Origin: Paludibacter propionicigenes
GTDB lineage: Bacteria > Bacteroidota > Bacteroidia > Bacteroidales > JAIFNL01
Direction: 5' to 3'
NCBI GenBank assembly: GCA_020721325.1
Contig: DYNA01000024.1
Location: forward strand, 1-36,439
DNA length: 36,439 bases
A program made the position numbers and the translations under genes. Below the pieces are notes generated by a model. It did no database searches. It was not told the DNA's origin and saw only the letters and a program-made list of their open reading frames with translations. This document shows, piece after piece, positions 2,634 through 12,534 of this stretch. Numbering within the stretch: position 1 is the first letter of the stretch; the number at the start of each line of letters is the position of its first letter.

Positions 2634-3491
2634 TTATATTTTTTTTATATCAAATTGACCAAATTTATTATAAACCAAAGTTAAGAAAATAGCAAATAAT
2701 ACAGCCGAACTACCAATAATTCCATTGATATAAATGGGTGCTGAAAGGGCTAAACGTATCATAACCGTGGTAAGTGCAAATCCTGAATTTCTAAATAAAA
2801 TTAAATACGAATAACTATAACGCATAGAAATAAGTACTAATAAAATATCAGTAAAAATGAGTATGTTATAAAAATTATGAAAAAAATCTGATTTTTGATG
2901 AAAAAACAAATATTCTACTATACTTTCTATACCAATAATAACAAATGTCAAAAGCATAATAAGTGCAAGTACTTTCTTTATATTCACATAGTTAAGCTGC
3001 TCTTCTGCTGTACGTGTAATGGATTTATGTTTTTGAATTTTCAAGAAAAAAGCGACGCAAAAAAAGATAAAAAGCGCACTAAAAGCATCGGAAGCTATCC
3101 TTAAAATGGGTTCAATATTTTGCCAATCTAAGTGCGCTTCGAATTGCGCAAATTCTTTAAAAGACTGTCGCAGCAAAATTAACGACAGAATTTCAAATTG
3201 TTTAGCCATAGCATCTGATACAGAGCGCGATAGAATTAAAATCATCTCCATAATTTCTACAATTAAAAGAAATGTAAAAACAACTTCAATAGCACTAAAA
3301 AGATTTTTAGGAAATAAAAATTGGATAAAATCGGGTAAAAGTTCTAATTTATTTAAACCGATAAATACAAGCGAAAATATAAAAACAAGCACCAAAATAG
3401 TACTAACTTTTTTGTGCATAGCTTGACTTTCAATGGTTTGCGAAAGAAAATCAAAAAAACGAACTGAACCATTCAAATATTTCATAATCAA
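2634..3491 (-). CDS. Polytopic inner-membrane protein, unknown function
   Basis: A 285-residue hydrophobic protein that I do not recognise. About six or seven membrane helices can be seen, near residues 30-52, 64-88, 137-155, 171-192, 205-222, 226-246 and 250-275. Between the second and third helices is a soluble stretch with conserved-looking charge (SVSDAMAKQFEIL, then LLRQSFKEF). A later segment carries spaced Arg/Tyr residues (MRYSYSYLILFR) at a membrane edge. No enzyme, transporter or channel signature is clear. The start could be Met1 or Met3, six bases apart. The gene stands alone, converges on the EEP gene with only 23 bases between stops, and diverges from porZ. Confidence 0.75.
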   Translation of the reverse strand: MIMKYLNGSVRFFDFLSQTIESQAMHKKVSTILVLVFIFSLVFIGLNKLELLPDFIQFLFPKNLFSAIEVVFTFLLIVEIMEMILILSRSVSDAMAKQFEILSLILLRQSFKEFAQFEAHLDWQNIEPILRIASDAFSALFIFFCVAFFLKIQKHKSITRTAEEQLNYVNIKKVLALIMLLTFVIIGIESIVEYLFFHQKSDFFHNFYNILIFTDILLVLISMRYSYSYLILFRNSGFALTTVMIRLALSAPIYINGIIGSSAVLFAIFLTLVYNKFGQFDIKKI

Positions 3492-3549: not shown

Positions 3550-3580
3550 TTTGAAAAAAAGTATTTTTTTTTTAGTTTTG
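3550..3580 (+). promoter_or_regulatory. Putative promoter of the porZ operon
   Basis: TTTG at 3550-3553, 19 bases, then TAGTTTTG at 3573-3580: a good Bacteroidota -33/-7 pair. The leader to the porZ ATG at 3626 would be about 40 bases and is A-rich with no Shine-Dalgarno site. Confidence 0.6.
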
Positions 3581-3625: not shown

Positions 3626-5923
3626 ATGAAAAAAACAATAGTTATACTGTTTTTATTTTTATTTGCTTTTGGGCAAGCACAAAATTATATTGGCGATTGG
3701 CAAGTGCATCTTCCTTATTATAGGGGAGTTATGGTAAGTAAAAATAATGATATAATTTATTGCGTTACCGAAGGTGGAATTTTTAGATACAATGAAGTGG
3801 ACGATGAATTATCAAATTTTTCAAAGGTTAATGGCTTGTCTGATAGCGATGTATCGGCTATCTGCAGCAATGAATTACTTAAAACTACTATTATTGCATA
3901 CGAAAATTCAAATATTGATATAATTAAAGATAATAAAATTACAAATATTCCCGACATTAAAAACAAGCAAATAATTGGAAGTAAGAGAATTAACTCAATT
4001 CTTTTTGTCAAAAATTATGCGTATTTAGCCATTGGTTTTGGAATTATTAAGTTAAATTTGGAAAAAAATGAAATTTCTGATACGTATTACATCGGAGAAA
4101 ATGGTAACAATTTAGTAGTCAATGAATTAGCTTATGATGAAACATACTTATATGCAGCCACAGAAAATGGAATTTTTTATATTAAAGAAGATTTGAATAC
4201 AATAAATGATTATCAAAGTTGGGAAAAAATGGACTTTTTGCCAACGGCAGATAAATCGTTTTTTAATGTGGTAAAGCTTGAAAATTCATTATTTGTTCTT
4301 GGCTATTATTCTGAAAATGAAAAAGTTATATATGAAATTTATGAAACCGATACCGGATTTGTTTATGAAACTCATGCAGATGAAGTTTTAATAAAAAATA
4401 AGCTAAAAAAAACAGCGAATGATTTGTTTTTACTTTCCGATACGGTAATGTACAAATTCAATATAAATAATTCGGTATTTGAACCACAAAAAAATGCCTT
4501 TCCTTCACCAAGGCCGCGCGATGTGATTTTAACTCATAATAGCGTATATATAGCTGATAATCTGAGAGGTATCGTTTTAATTAGAGGCGAAAACAAATAT
4601 TACTTTTATCCGGACGGAACGCACGAATTAAATATAGAAGAAATGGATATTGTAAATAATGAATTATGGGCAACTTATGGTGGAAGAAATGCGCTTTTAA
4701 GCGGAAAAAATTATTATGGCATGGTCAATAAATATTTCGACAATAAATGGACACATTTGAGCGGAACAAATACATTGGATTGGACTGAAATTAAGATAGT
4801 TCCGAGTGACCCAAAGCACATTTTCATTGGAACAATCGGCTACGGGATAGTAGAAATTTATGACAACAAAGTAAAAAAGATATATGACCGTAATAACTTT
4901 TCAGAGCATACCCTTCAATCGATTATTGAAGGAAATTTTATTCGCATTGGTGGGTTAGCTTTCGATAAAAATGAAAATTTATGGATTACCAACTGGGGCG
5001 TTGATGAACCAATATCTGTAATTAAAAAAGATGGTACTTGGAAAAGTTTTAAATACAAAGATGCAATCAATTTTCCGTATATGACAGATATTATTATTAC
5101 CAAAACCGATAATAAATGGTGCATTTTGCCGCGTGGAGAAGGTCTTTTCGTATTTAATAACAATGGAACAATAGACAACGAAAATGACGATTTACTTTAC
5201 AAATTTCAGAATAAAGACCGCGATGGAGCAATCCTTTCAAACAACATCAACTGCATAACCGAAGACCGTGAAGGAATTATTTGGGTAGGAACCGATGAAG
5301 GCGTTGTAGTTTACTATAATCCTGATAATGTGTTTGATAACCGCGATTATTTTTACGCATCACAAATAATTATTGAGGTAAATGGCGAACCTAAGCATCT
5401 TTTAAAAACGGAATTAATTCAAACCATTGAAATTGATGGAGCGAACCGAAAATGGATTGGTACTGAAAAATCGGGACTTTACATTCTATCGCCCGATGGA
5501 ACAAGCGAAATTGCTCACTTTACTGCCGAAAATAGCCCTTTACTTTCAAATAATGTTACAAAAATTAAAATAAATCCGCAAAACGGTATAGCTTATATAG
5601 CAACCAATAAAGGGTTAATGAGCTATAAATCAGCAACAACTGAACCTAATGACTATTTTGAGAAAGTGTTGGTTTATCCCAATCCGGTTCGAAATACTTA
5701 TCAAGGCGATGTGGTGATTAGTGGCTTAGTAGAAGATACTAATGTGAAAATCACTGATATAGCCGGTAATTTTGTATTTGAAACCCAATCGCTTGGTGGT
5801 CAAGCGACATGGAACGGAAAAACTTTACAAGGCGACCGAGTTAAAACTGGTATTTATTTAATATTTCTTTCCAATGAAGATGGTTCTAAAACATTTATAA
5901 CCAAGTTATTATTCATAAATTAG
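3626..5923 (+). CDS. porZ: Type IX secretion system component PorZ-like, two propellers plus CTD
   Basis: Best match by recall is PorZ, the T9SS cell-surface protein that binds A-LPS and works with the PorU sortase to anchor cargo. Length, 765 residues, fits the P. gingivalis protein. A signal peptide ends near FGQAQ (about residue 19). The mature N-terminus begins with the typical IGDWQVHLPY stretch, followed by ITEGG-like and KVNGLSD blade motifs of two-component-regulator-type beta-propellers; two propellers fill about residues 20-660. The end (about 678-765) is a type A sorting domain with VYPNPV near its start and KTGIYLIF near its end. The gene leads an operon: the next start is 2 bases after its stop. 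A good TTTG/TAnnTTTG promoter lies upstream. Confidence is high for the architecture and somewhat lower for orthology. Confidence 0.85.
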   Translation: MKKTIVILFLFLFAFGQAQNYIGDWQVHLPYYRGVMVSKNNDIIYCVTEGGIFRYNEVDDELSNFSKVNGLSDSDVSAICSNELLKTTIIAYENSNIDIIKDNKITNIPDIKNKQIIGSKRINSILFVKNYAYLAIGFGIIKLNLEKNEISDTYYIGENGNNLVVNELAYDETYLYAATENGIFYIKEDLNTINDYQSWEKMDFLPTADKSFFNVVKLENSLFVLGYYSENEKVIYEIYETDTGFVYETHADEVLIKNKLKKTANDLFLLSDTVMYKFNINNSVFEPQKNAFPSPRPRDVILTHNSVYIADNLRGIVLIRGENKYYFYPDGTHELNIEEMDIVNNELWATYGGRNALLSGKNYYGMVNKYFDNKWTHLSGTNTLDWTEIKIVPSDPKHIFIGTIGYGIVEIYDNKVKKIYDRNNFSEHTLQSIIEGNFIRIGGLAFDKNENLWITNWGVDEPISVIKKDGTWKSFKYKDAINFPYMTDIIITKTDNKWCILPRGEGLFVFNNNGTIDNENDDLLYKFQNKDRDGAILSNNINCITEDREGIIWVGTDEGVVVYYNPDNVFDNRDYFYASQIIIEVNGEPKHLLKTELIQTIEIDGANRKWIGTEKSGLYILSPDGTSEIAHFTAENSPLLSNNVTKIKINPQNGIAYIATNKGLMSYKSATTEPNDYFEKVLVYPNPVRNTYQGDVVISGLVEDTNVKITDIAGNFVFETQSLGGQATWNGKTLQGDRVKTGIYLIFLSNEDGSKTFITKLLFIN

Positions 5924-5925
5924 AA

Positions 5926-7467
5926 ATGATTTTATTTTTCAAAAAAAATCAACTTTTTTATATTTTCTTAATAGCTAATATAATATTTTCAGGTATTTTT
6001 ATACTCACTGGAAACTACATTAATTTACCAAAAAATCAATTTTCCGATTATCTTCAAACATTTATACATTGGAGTATAATAAGTGCTGCCTATGGTATAA
6101 TTATCTATTTATTAGCACTTTACAAAAAAATATTTACATTTATTTTCCCTCTTTTACAAACTATTTCGGCTTTACTAATTTATTTTGTAGTACAATTTGA
6201 TATTACCATTAATTCATTTTTAATTTCATCATTTTTTAATACAAATATAGATGAAGTTACCGGTTTAATTTCTTTAAAACTTATCTTATATTTACTTTTT
6301 ATTTTGGTATTTTCGTTTATTTCCACATTTTTTCGTTCAAAAATTGAAGTTCAAAATATTAAACTTCACTTTACCATTTTATTTATTTTCACTTTTTTTA
6401 TTTTTACAATAAATAATATACGTTATAAAACAGTAAGTCAAAGAGTTCCATTTTCAATTTACTTAGCTATTAAAGAATATAAACTTGAAATAAATCAGTT
6501 AAATGAAATTAAAATCGATGCAGCGAAAAATACAAATTGTAATCAAGATACATTAACGGTGGTTTTAATAATAGGAGAAGCACTTAGGGCAGACCATCTT
6601 AGCTTAAATGGCTATAAAAGAGAAACTTGTCCGAGTTTAAAAAAACAAAATATTCTTTCATTTTCCAACGTTTATACACAATGGACTCATACAAATAGCA
6701 GTATTCCACACATTTTAACACGTGCCGATAGCACTAATTACAAACCGGCTTTAACAGAAAAATCTGTTATAAATCTATTTAATAAATGCAATTACAAAAC
6801 ATATTGGCTTGGTAATCAAGAACCTGCAAATACATATATTTCTTTTGTAAAAGAATGTGATACGGTTATTTTAAATAAACCTATGCAAACGGTTTATAAT
6901 TTTTCTAAAAAAATAGATGGCGATTTACTTCCTCATTTTCAAAATTTTACGAAGCAAAAATATCCAAAAAAATTTATTATAGTACACTTAATCGGTAGCC
7001 ATTGGTTTTATCCATCTCACTATCCTATTGATTTTGAGATATTTAAACCCACTATAAAAGGTAAAAGTTTTACTAACAAAGATAAACAAAAAATGATAAA
7101 TGCTTATGATAACTCCATTTTATACACCGATTATATTGTAAATGAGTTTATTAAAAATTTAAAAAACGAAAATTCAATATTACTCTTTTTATCAGACCAT
7201 GGAGAACTATTAGGCGAAAATGGAAAATGGTTACATGCGCAAGATACAGAATTTGAAAAAAATCCCGCTTTTTTTATTTGGTTTTCGCAAAAATTTAAAG
7301 AAAAAAATCTGGTAAAATTAAATCATGCCGAAAAGTATAAAAAAACACATTTTCGCAACGATTTTTTATTTCATTCGCTTTTGTACATTGCATCAATAGA
7401 AACGTCAATTTTAGATAGTACATTAGTTATTTTTGACCCAAAATTTAAAAAATTCAACAAAAATTAG
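5926..7467 (+). CDS. Phosphoethanolamine transferase-like, EptA/sulfatase superfamily
   Basis: Inner-membrane enzyme of 513 residues that probably moves phosphoethanolamine, or a related phospho-group, from phospholipid to a glycolipid or glycan on the periplasmic face. Four or five N-terminal helices (about residues 9-28, 47-65, 70-92, 115-134, 147-163) precede a periplasmic alkaline-phosphatase-fold domain. The family signs are there: NTNIDE (about 105-110, like the TNxxE loop of EptA), IIGEALRADH with metal ligand Glu218, SLNGY, Thr256 in HTNSSIP at the position of the phospho-accepting threonine, and SDHGE with Asp424/His425. It sits 2 bases after porZ and 6 before the methyltransferase-like gene, so it is surely co-transcribed. 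The target (lipid A, A-LPS-like glycan or other) is inference. Confidence 0.85.
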   Translation: MILFFKKNQLFYIFLIANIIFSGIFILTGNYINLPKNQFSDYLQTFIHWSIISAAYGIIIYLLALYKKIFTFIFPLLQTISALLIYFVVQFDITINSFLISSFFNTNIDEVTGLISLKLILYLLFILVFSFISTFFRSKIEVQNIKLHFTILFIFTFFIFTINNIRYKTVSQRVPFSIYLAIKEYKLEINQLNEIKIDAAKNTNCNQDTLTVVLIIGEALRADHLSLNGYKRETCPSLKKQNILSFSNVYTQWTHTNSSIPHILTRADSTNYKPALTEKSVINLFNKCNYKTYWLGNQEPANTYISFVKECDTVILNKPMQTVYNFSKKIDGDLLPHFQNFTKQKYPKKFIIVHLIGSHWFYPSHYPIDFEIFKPTIKGKSFTNKDKQKMINAYDNSILYTDYIVNEFIKNLKNENSILLFLSDHGELLGENGKWLHAQDTEFEKNPAFFIWFSQKFKEKNLVKLNHAEKYKKTHFRNDFLFHSLLYIASIETSILDSTLVIFDPKFKKFNKN

Positions 7468-7473
7468 AAAAAT

Positions 7474-8334
7474 ATGTTCAAAATATTAAAAAATTTTATA
7501 AAAAGGAAATTTCTTATTCTAAAAATAAGAAACCGTTTTTTTGCATCGGTGCAAATTGAGCAAAGAAAATTATACCTGAAATATCAAGAATTAGCTAAAA
7601 ATAACCAACTTCCAAAACTTTCCGAAACCGGATTTAGAGTATTTTCGCAATTTGAAGAAGATGGAAAATTACTGTTTATTTTTTCAGTTCTTGGAATGCC
7701 CCAAAAAACATTTGTTGAAATTGGTTCTGACGATGGAATAAACAGCAATTCAGCCAATTTGTATTTTCATTTTGGCTGGTATGGTTTGTTTATAGATGCT
7801 AATAATGAGAGTATTAAGCGCGGGAAAGATTTTTTTTCAAAATATCCACATTCGTGGTTTTATCCTCCCAAATTTGCTCATGCAAAAGTTACGAGCGAAA
7901 ATATCAATCAAATAATTGAAAATAAAGGCTTTAAAGGTGAAATTGGGCTACTTTCCATTGATATTGACGGAAACGATTATTGGATATGGAATGCTATTGA
8001 AATAATTGAACCACAAGTAGTTATAATTGAAACACACATCGAATTTGGTTACAACAGCATAGTTGTTCCATACAACCCTGAGTACCAATTTCCGGGCAAA
8101 CACCCGATTTATCACGGAGCTTCGCCTGTAGCCATGACAAAATTAGCAAAGAAAAAAGGGTATCGCTTAGTGGGAGCTAATGAACTGGGTTTCAACTTTA
8201 TATTCATAAAAAATGGTTTAGCAGAAAAGCAAATTCCTGAAGTTTCGATAGAATCGGTTTTAACGCACATCTCAGTTTTAGAATCGTTTAAAGAATTTGA
8301 AAAAATAAAAAACTGGGATTTTATCCATGTTTAG
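7474..8334 (+). CDS. FkbM-like SAM-dependent methyltransferase (putative)
   Basis: A 286-residue probable class I methyltransferase. The Rossmann motif I is FVEIGSDDG (residues 80-88), an acidic residue for the SAM ribose follows in LFIDAN (Asp108), and LLSIDIDGND (159-168) resembles the IDIEG-type motif of the FkbM family, which often O-methylates sugars in LPS, capsule or antibiotics. The N-terminus is basic with no signal peptide, so it is cytoplasmic. Third gene of the porZ operon, only 6 bases after the transferase gene. The sugar or other acceptor is unknown; the motifs are weaker than in typical FkbM proteins, so a related methyltransferase-fold protein without activity is possible. 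Confidence 0.65.
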   Translation: MFKILKNFIKRKFLILKIRNRFFASVQIEQRKLYLKYQELAKNNQLPKLSETGFRVFSQFEEDGKLLFIFSVLGMPQKTFVEIGSDDGINSNSANLYFHFGWYGLFIDANNESIKRGKDFFSKYPHSWFYPPKFAHAKVTSENINQIIENKGFKGEIGLLSIDIDGNDYWIWNAIEIIEPQVVIIETHIEFGYNSIVVPYNPEYQFPGKHPIYHGASPVAMTKLAKKKGYRLVGANELGFNFIFIKNGLAEKQIPEVSIESVLTHISVLESFKEFEKIKNWDFIHV

Positions 8335-8402
8335 TAAATAAAATTTTATAATATTTTATTATTTAAACTAATTATTTAAAACATTTTTCATTCATATTTA
8401 AC

Positions 8403-9902
8403 ATGGTATTTCCCAAAAAAGTAAAATGGCTAACTATTTATAGTTTACTTTTTTTTATCAGCTTATTTTATTATTTTTATCCAACAAACAACAGTAGTTT
8501 AGATGCTTACAACTATGCTGGCTGTATAAAATATGGCGAAAACTTATTCTTTGCGCATCATCTTTTTTACAATGCTTTTTTATATCTCGTTTTAAATCCA
8601 TTTACATACTTATTTGATATAGAAGTTCTTATATTATTAAAAATTATAAATTCAAGCTTTGTTTTATTTAGCCTTTTTTTATTGTATAAAATTTTAAAAA
8701 ATATACAAATCAATGAAAATGAAATATTTGCAATTATAATAAGTTTAAGTTTTAGTTTTACACTTTGGCGATATGGAACTGAAAACGAAACCTATATTAT
8801 CCCCATAAGTCTTTCATTATTAGCAAGTTTAAATTTTCAACTCTTTCAATTTTATAAAAAAAATAAATACATTTTTATATCCGGATTCTTTGCTGCTTTT
8901 GCCTGCTTATTCCACCAAATTCACTTTTTTTGGTGGTTGGGTTTATTAATTGGTATTTATTTATCACAAAATAAAATAAAAACTTTATTAATTTATATTC
9001 TTCCGGCTTTAATTGTTCCGATAAGTTATATTTTAGTTATAAAATTTTATAATAATCAATCGCTTAACCATCTAAATTTTATACATTTCATACTTCATGA
9101 CTATTTTGCAGGAACAGCAAAATTGCAATTTGGTTGGAAAAATATTTTTTTAACCTTGGTTTCAACCTTTCGATTGATGTTTCAAGCTCACCCGATAATT
9201 GTTAAATTAATAAATATCAGTTATTTATACATTTTACCCTTTATTCTTTTACTATTTTTAATTTTTTATTTGATTTTCTTATTTTTGAAAAAGAAACTGT
9301 TTATTAAAAAAACAAATTCCTCGCCTTTATTTGGTCATATCCATATACTTATATTTTTTTTCCACTTTCTTTTCGCGCTCTATTCAATGGGAAATAATGA
9401 ATTTATGATAGTATTACCTTTCTTATTCATAATCAGTTTTTTAAGTTTTTTTCAAATACAGAGAAAATTTCTAATTACCTTATCTCTAACACTTTTTATT
9501 TGGAATTTTTCTTATGGTATTTTTCCAAATAAAAAATATTCTTTTTACGAAAGTGAAAAATTAATTCACTTTATTCAACACAATGAAAGTGAATTGTTTA
9601 TTGTTGGCAATCAATTCATTATCAATCAGTACTATTATTTTACAGGAAAGGATAATTTCAAAAATATCATTTTTGAAGGAAAAATAAAATCATTTTCGGA
9701 ATTTAAAAATACCATCAAAAATCGTTCTTATTTTTATACCGATTTAATTGAAAAACCACAATTATTTGATAGAGCAAGCATCGTTTCTAACAAAAGCTAT
9801 ACAATTGATTTCAAAGAATTTAAGAAAGAAAAAGTAATTACAATGAACGGACTCTACGGAAAAACAATACTTTATAAAGTGTATCTAAAAAAACAAAAAT
9901 GA
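8403..9902 (+). CDS. Multi-pass membrane protein, probable GT-C type glycosyltransferase
   Basis: A 499-residue protein with about ten or more hydrophobic helices in the first 380 residues and a soluble C-terminal part (about 385-499). The short loop after helix 1 has an acidic residue in SSLDAYNYAG (Asp34), and a second acidic loop (GTENETYI) follows helix 4; this layout is typical of polyprenyl-phosphate-sugar-dependent GT-C enzymes such as the ArnT/PMT/GT39-like group. No signature is strong enough to name a family. It lies 68 bases after the FkbM-like gene in the same direction and may belong to the porZ operon; the gap is A/T-only with no clear terminator. An O-antigen polymerase-like protein is an alternative. 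Confidence 0.6.
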   Translation: MVFPKKVKWLTIYSLLFFISLFYYFYPTNNSSLDAYNYAGCIKYGENLFFAHHLFYNAFLYLVLNPFTYLFDIEVLILLKIINSSFVLFSLFLLYKILKNIQINENEIFAIIISLSFSFTLWRYGTENETYIIPISLSLLASLNFQLFQFYKKNKYIFISGFFAAFACLFHQIHFFWWLGLLIGIYLSQNKIKTLLIYILPALIVPISYILVIKFYNNQSLNHLNFIHFILHDYFAGTAKLQFGWKNIFLTLVSTFRLMFQAHPIIVKLINISYLYILPFILLLFLIFYLIFLFLKKKLFIKKTNSSPLFGHIHILIFFFHFLFALYSMGNNEFMIVLPFLFIISFLSFFQIQRKFLITLSLTLFIWNFSYGIFPNKKYSFYESEKLIHFIQHNESELFIVGNQFIINQYYYFTGKDNFKNIIFEGKIKSFSEFKNTIKNRSYFYTDLIEKPQLFDRASIVSNKSYTIDFKEFKKEKVITMNGLYGKTILYKVYLKKQK

Positions 9903-10002: not shown

Positions 10003-10030
10003 TTTGTAAAAAAATTTTATTGTATTTTTG
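10003..10030 (+). promoter_or_regulatory. Putative promoter of parE
   Basis: TTTG at 10003-10006 and TATTTTTG at 10023-10030 match the Bacteroidota -33 and -7 elements (TTTG and TAnnTTTG), spaced 16 bases, slightly short. Transcription would start near 10037, giving a leader of about 50 bases. Confidence 0.45.
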
Positions 10031-12060: not shown

Positions 12061-12114
12061 TATATTTATCGAAAAAATAAAAACTAATTTTGCAAATTAT
12101 AAAAAAACAAGCTT

Positions 12115-12492
12115 ATGGCTAAAATATATACAATTATTATTCTATTAGCATCTATATTTCTTTATCAATCAGATATTTATGCTCAAACAGGGAAAAAAAG
12201 CTCTGTTTCAAATTCAACAGAAATACAAACCAATGAATTTGAGATAAAAGCCTTTCCAAACCCCGTAAAATCAGGCGAATACATTTCCATCGAATTTTCT
12301 AATTTCCAAACAGAAAAACCGATTTCAATAGCATTAATCAATATTATTGGAAAGCAATTAATTAATATAGAGATAGATACAATGAATTACAAACTTCACA
12401 TAACAAAGGAAAAATTTCCAGCCGGAATTTATATTCTCAAAGCAAAACAGGACAATAAGATACGAACTATGCGTTTAAATGTAGTCCAGTAA
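12115..12492 (+). CDS. Miniprotein: signal peptide plus T9SS type A sorting domain
   Basis: A 125-residue exported protein with almost nothing but targeting signals. Residues 1-24 are a Sec signal peptide ending in DIYAQ. Residues 25-41 are a polar Ser/Lys/Thr linker. Residues 42-125 are a full type A C-terminal sorting domain: FEIKAFPNPVKSGE at its start, ALINIIGKQL in the middle, and FPAGIYILKAK plus a basic, strand-like end. Usual T9SS cargo has hundreds of residues between signal and sorting domain; here there is none. It has its own terminator and a possible -7 box, so it looks like a standalone gene rather than the tail of a broken one: no frameshifted cargo is seen upstream, where parE ends normally. 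Confidence 0.8.
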   Translation: MAKIYTIIILLASIFLYQSDIYAQTGKKSSVSNSTEIQTNEFEIKAFPNPVKSGEYISIEFSNFQTEKPISIALINIIGKQLINIEIDTMNYKLHITKEKFPAGIYILKAKQDNKIRTMRLNVVQ

Positions 12493-12534
12493 TTCATTCA
12501 TAATCAATTAATTAATTTTTATTTTAAAATTAAG

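Follow-up and report, generated by a model that had tools for sequence, protein, structure and literature searches.

A porZ-linked phosphoethanolamine transferase-like gene in Paludibacter propionicigenes and its recurrence beside porZ in other Bacteroidales

The porZ locus and its gene products

The window, by which we mean the whole stretch of 36,439 nucleotides of Paludibacter propionicigenes DNA that was analyzed (contig DYNA01000024.1), carries four open reading frames on the plus strand, separated by gaps of 2, 6 and 68 bases. These coordinates and gaps were given exactly in the initial annotation, and its gene identities (porZ, EptA-like, FkbM-like and GT-C-like) were borne out by the PorZ model NF052228 (631 bits), by Pfam domains and by predicted folds. 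The features of the locus are:

3550..3580, plus strand: Bacteroidota-type promoter TTTG-N19-TAGTTTTG ahead of porZ, by motif match
3626..5923, plus strand: porZ, encoding the anchor-LPS-binding protein of the T9SS attachment complex (NF052228 equivalog, PorZ_N_b_propeller, PDB 5m11)
5926..7467, plus strand: eptA-like gene for a membrane phosphoethanolamine transferase of a distinct subfamily, assigned by Pfam and NCBIfam scores, catalytic residues and the score gap around the subfamily
7474..8334, plus strand: FkbM-like SAM methyltransferase gene, assigned by predicted fold and 38% identity to an annotated plasmid gene; an insertion in this species only
8403..9902, plus strand: gene for a GT-C-fold membrane glycosyltransferase, assigned by predicted fold; an insertion in this species only
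10003..10030, plus strand: promoter-like TTTG-N16-TATTTTTG ahead of parE, by motif match; likely end of the unit
12115-12492, plus strand: small T9SS-tail gene (8794-9216 and 12094-12516 in the loci L063 and L064 of the two congeners)

The promoter motif before porZ is found at the same position in both congeners. Searching for TAnnTTTG between the eptA stop codon and the GT-C gene gave no match, and a match at 7428 falls within the end of eptA. A scan for promoters and terminators by sigma-70 rules was uninformative, finding 41 sites where 52 were expected, and the Bacteroidota motif was used instead. The operon-like layout proposed initially was thus supported by spacing, strand and the lack of this motif after eptA; a single mRNA for all four genes is plausible, and porZ and eptA are probably transcribed from one promoter.

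The porZ product is a full-length member of the NF052228 equivalog (631 bits with a cut-off of 260), carries the PorZ_N_b_propeller domain (132 bits) and a C-terminal Por_Secre_tail-like domain, and is related to PDB 5m11 (E 5e-80). PorZ binds A-LPS and delivers it to the PorU sortase, as the initial annotation had in part stated; in the same study the binding reportedly did not depend on how lipid A is acylated or phosphorylated (PMC8545088). The window genome yielded 58 matches to the T9SS sorting-tail family (E 0.001 or better) and thus has many candidate cargo proteins, indicating that the organism probably secretes or anchors many of them. Directly upstream of porZ lies a gene on the minus strand (2634-3491), kept in the genus, for a protein of 285 residues with about seven hydrophobic stretches, for which searches of Pfam and NCBIfam gave no match. 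Behind parE, each of the genus's three species encodes a small protein of 125-140 residues that consists of hardly anything besides a leader and a T9SS sorting tail. Another genome carries a tandem pair of full-length porZ genes (L066, G004:C20:212649-217296).

The eptA product matches the Pfam families Sulfatase (156 bits) and EptA_B_N (35.6 bits with a cut-off of 22.3), giving it both domains of the enzyme class, and it is similar to Neisseria meningitidis EptA (5fgn) and Campylobacter EptC (4tn0). Its best NCBIfam models are phosphoethanolamine transferases, yet it scores under their equivalog cut-offs; the best of the lipid-A-specific EptA/MCR models gave 216 bits where 500 are required. 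Since the protein falls below all lipid-A-specific cut-offs, the family assignment does not fix its acceptor. Alignment to 5fgn and 4tn0 placed E218, T256, D424 and H425, together with H359 and H437, at MCR/EptA catalytic residues, and all six are invariant across four aligned members of the subfamily. We take E218, T256, D424 and H425 to be the positions matching the EptA/MCR nucleophile and metal ligands, and H359 and H437 to be further histidines. EptA enzymes take phosphoethanolamine from phosphatidylethanolamine and act on the periplasmic side of the inner membrane, and lipid A is a common target of family members.

The third gene product scored 18.6 bits against the FkbM family (PF05050), below its cut-off of 22.7, and four of its 11 homologues matched PF05050 at E 0.01 or better. 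The top PDB matches of its AlphaFold model (pLDDT 92) were SAM-dependent methyltransferases with modest TM scores of 0.37-0.44, placing the predicted structure among the class I SAM methyltransferases with their Rossmann methyltransferase fold. Among the plasmid matches listed the best was a gene 38% identical and annotated 'FkbM family methyltransferase', and with this as the highest identity we rejected the idea that the gene is plasmid-borne. The fourth gene product had no match in Pfam or NCBIfam and so belongs to no known GT-C sequence family by these searches; one of its homologues matched PMT_2 (E 0.006). Its model, built with seven homologues (pLDDT 80), matched almost only GT-C glycosyltransferases in the PDB, e.g. 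ALG9, ArnT, PglB and OST, with a best TM score of about 0.53, indicating a predicted GT-C membrane fold and sustaining the GT-C-like label.

Conservation of the porZ-eptA pair and its additions

The two other genomes of the genus, which are also those of the family (congeners G001 and G002), have the same order as the window: two upstream genes, the reverse-strand membrane-protein gene, porZ, eptA, parE and the small T9SS-tail gene. Each of the genus's three genomes thus has eptA immediately behind porZ, and in the congeners parE directly follows eptA. In a genome of another family (G024; L114 15055-17003), the two genes upstream of porZ in the window, at 56-1528 and 1570-2610, have adjacent homologues, with porZ on a different contig. 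Neither congener has the fkbM or the GT-C gene, be it at the corresponding site or elsewhere in the genome. Given that the order is otherwise identical, the pair is most simply explained as a species-specific insertion, a recent add-on. The FkbM-like protein is 55-70% identical to the best copies in other families while the window PorZ is 33-42% identical to PorZ of two genomes (G009 and G030), and this, with the absence from the congeners, points to horizontal acquisition, so that the methyltransferase gene was probably acquired in this way. Homologues of FkbM were found in 13 of 393 genomes of the order (E 1e-50) and of GT-C in nine (E 1e-12), solitary and in unrelated contexts where inspected. 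Comparing the hit lists at these thresholds, we found FkbM and GT-C together, or either with the EptA subfamily, in none of the 393 order genomes beyond that of the window. The FkbM homologue lies 14.5 kb from porZ in G030 and on a different contig from porZ in G009 and G037; the homologue in G037 is broken by stop codons TGA and TAG (L086, G037:C276:626-1470).

To delimit the EptA subfamily, a profile built from four EptAs was run on the 393 order genomes and on 396 genomes sampled phylum-wide. Fifteen of the order genomes had a member, scoring at least 456 bits, with the next matches at 220 bits, and the phylum-wide sample added none beyond the window genome (best other match 223 bits); by these scores the subfamily is discrete. 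Most Bacteroidales with porZ are without an EptA of this subfamily, and we rejected an order-wide porZ-eptA association, the pair being absent from most order genomes. Carriage of eptA on plasmids was likewise rejected, the plasmid homologues being distant (below 32% identity among the matches listed). At five loci (L109, L140, L143, L146 and L147) the subfamily gene is paired with an acyltransferase_3 gene, even far from porZ.

In seven of the 15 genomes, from four of ten families, porZ lies at most 10 kb from the subfamily EptA, in differing arrangements:

Family f1, three genomes: porZ-eptA
Family f41 (G042): rdgB-porZ-acyltransferase_3-eptA
Family f60 (G388): eptA divergent from rdgB-porZ, with acyltransferase_3 adjoining eptA
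Family f60 (G258): eptA on the same side as in G388, with a mobile element between, 7.4 kb from porZ
Family f109 (G291): eptA divergent from rdgB-porZ, with a shortened acyltransferase_3

The stretch between rdgB-porZ and eptA in G258 (L145 3050-8893) holds integrase, mobilisation-type and DNA-methyltransferase-like genes. In the six other families (f37 with three genomes, f68, f80, f24, f105 and f29) EptA lies elsewhere than near porZ, such as behind folP (f37) or beside acyltransferase_3 (f24 and f29), and contig breaks do not explain this except in G149, where both genes are near contig ends. The subfamily is therefore not dependent on linkage to porZ. A single clade of porZ-linked EptAs was rejected (AU p 4e-35), and the conflict of the EptA and porZ trees at G265 and G291 suggests that EptA moves. 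Within the genus of G291, the same site beside porZ is without eptA in G110.

We estimated the chance of such linkage by random placement with a span of about 10 kb and one draw for each of the nine non-seed families. The probability of linkage in at least one family was about 0.07, in at least two about 0.002, and in at least three about 4e-5. A single event may underlie the linkages in both f60 and f109, and a strict count could leave one or two non-seed events (p 0.07 to 0.002). In 47 other porZ neighbourhoods, all lacking the link, neither EptA nor any close homologue of its partner acyltransferase turned up; 28 of them had rdgB and 22 had recO close to porZ. In one genome of f105 (G106, L197 5237-11629), rdgB-porZ is followed 5 bases downstream of porZ by acyltransferase_3, with a convergent MBOAT gene close by. 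Together, the data indicate that the porZ-eptA association is likely real, with modest support, and the linkage is evidence of association only. Of the four-gene unit first envisaged, the porZ-eptA part is shared by the whole genus and reappears in three other families, whereas fkbM and GT-C join it in this species only. Among open-licence papers we found no report of porZ-eptA linkage.

A possible role of EptA beside PorZ

In Porphyromonas gingivalis cargo is anchored by A-LPS, in which the linker saccharide is carried on an O-polysaccharide containing Rha(PEtN) and the core contains Kdo(PEtN)1-2 (PMC13086638). That study assigns glycosyltransferases; a phosphoethanolamine transferase was looked for in its text and not found, and we found no paper naming the enzyme that adds phosphoethanolamine to this anchor. 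We propose, with a probability of roughly 40%, that the conserved unit is porZ-eptA and that EptA, functionally coupled to PorZ, modifies LPS with phosphoethanolamine, anchor LPS for T9SS cargo included. Judging from its family, EptA would lie in the inner membrane with its catalytic domain facing the periplasm and would transfer phosphoethanolamine from phosphatidylethanolamine to LPS, the acceptor probably being core Kdo or O-polysaccharide. Since PorZ binding was reported to be insensitive to the state of lipid A, the core or O-polysaccharide would fit better than lipid A as a target relevant to PorZ. Decoration would precede dispatch of LPS to the outer membrane, where PorZ would take the anchor form of the decorated LPS and hand it to PorU to be joined to cargo, and by co-transcribing porZ and eptA the cell would keep the supply of decorated anchor LPS in step with the attachment complex. 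The methyltransferase and the GT-C glycosyltransferase, added later behind eptA in the window's species, may further decorate the same glycan. A common task in anchor glycolipid synthesis, suggested for all the enzymes, would now fall mainly to eptA. A wider proposal, that the subfamily is dedicated to anchor-LPS phosphoethanolamine and that porZ is a recurrent assembly point for lineage-specific anchor-tailoring enzymes (EptA, acyltransferase_3, MBOAT, GT-C and methyltransferase), we regard as unlikely.

EptA could instead be an ordinary LPS or lipid A phosphoethanolamine transferase serving surface charge and resistance to antimicrobial peptides, its linkage to porZ being positional or regulatory and not anchor-specific. 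The family commonly acts on lipid A, and in six of ten families the subfamily gene is unlinked to porZ, often adjoining acyltransferase_3 instead. The characterised Bacteroidota EptA, that of Capnocytophaga canimorsus, modifies lipid A together with LpxE (PMC4730577), which counts against the anchor reading, as does the reported independence of A-LPS binding by PorZ from the state of lipid A (PMC8545088). Set against these points, linkage to porZ recurs in four families with differing arrangements, and no lpxE-like partner was noticed next to the porZ-linked eptA genes. We give this explanation a substantial chance, somewhat short of even. It is also conceivable, if rather unlikely, that the porZ neighbourhood is a tolerant insertion site at which genes for envelope enzymes gather by chance and horizontal transfer. 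This would account for the two genomes of one genus with (G291, eptA and acyltransferase_3) and without (G110) the insertion beside rdgB-porZ, for the mobile element beside porZ in G258 and for porZ of the window's genus lying outside its usual rdgB-porZ-recO context. However, the enzymes encoded next to porZ repeatedly belong to one kind, EptA and acyltransferase_3 (in G106 acyltransferase_3 with a nearby MBOAT protein), and in the other sampled genomes the neighbours of porZ are mostly rdgB and recO.

The initial annotation had taken all four genes for one evolved unit that makes or decorates the anchor glycolipid. Their common strand, tight spacing and lack of an internal promoter motif after eptA speak for it, as do the glycan-modifying kinds of all three enzymes, but both congeners have porZ-eptA-parE without the other two genes, homologues of these are solitary elsewhere, and no other of the 393 order genomes combines any gene set tested at the thresholds used. 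It had named separation of the four genes in close relatives as a refutation, and the congeners come near to this, keeping the order yet without fkbM and GT-C. As a conserved unit the four-gene grouping is largely refuted by these comparisons, and its evolution as one unit for the anchor glycolipid is very improbable. For the porZ-eptA reading that we prefer, a distinct EptA subfamily found repeatedly by porZ offers a concrete candidate for the anchor phosphoethanolamine enzyme in other Bacteroidales and makes the source of anchor phosphoethanolamine a testable question.

Comparison with known systems

Like P. gingivalis PorZ (5m11; PMC8545088), the window PorZ is a full-length equivalog with the same N-terminal propeller and C-terminal tail. 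The sampled order genomes mostly have rdgB and/or recO beside porZ; in the window's genus, by contrast, porZ lies between a membrane-protein gene and parE, with eptA next downstream. The lpxE-eptA operon of C. canimorsus (PMC4730577) is likewise a two-gene operon of a Bacteroidota species with an EptA-family enzyme, but it pairs EptA with a lipid A phosphatase and is directed at position 1 of lipid A, whereas the partner of the window eptA is porZ. The fourth gene product shares its predicted fold with GT-C glycosyltransferases (ArnT, ALG9, DPY19) without a match to their sequence families, and the third resembles FkbM-family methyltransferases in its Rossmann fold, a SAM-site-like motif and similarity to annotated FkbM genes, though it is under the Pfam cut-off. 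With the EptA/MCR enzymes (5fgn, MCR-1, EptC 4tn0) the window EptA has in common a membrane domain, a sulfatase-fold domain and the same nucleophile and metal-ligand residues. Unlike them, it is without the cysteines flanking the nucleophile, carries the motif HxIGSHW where theirs is GSHGP, scores under the equivalog cut-offs, and belongs to a separate subfamily that in this sampling is confined to the window's order.
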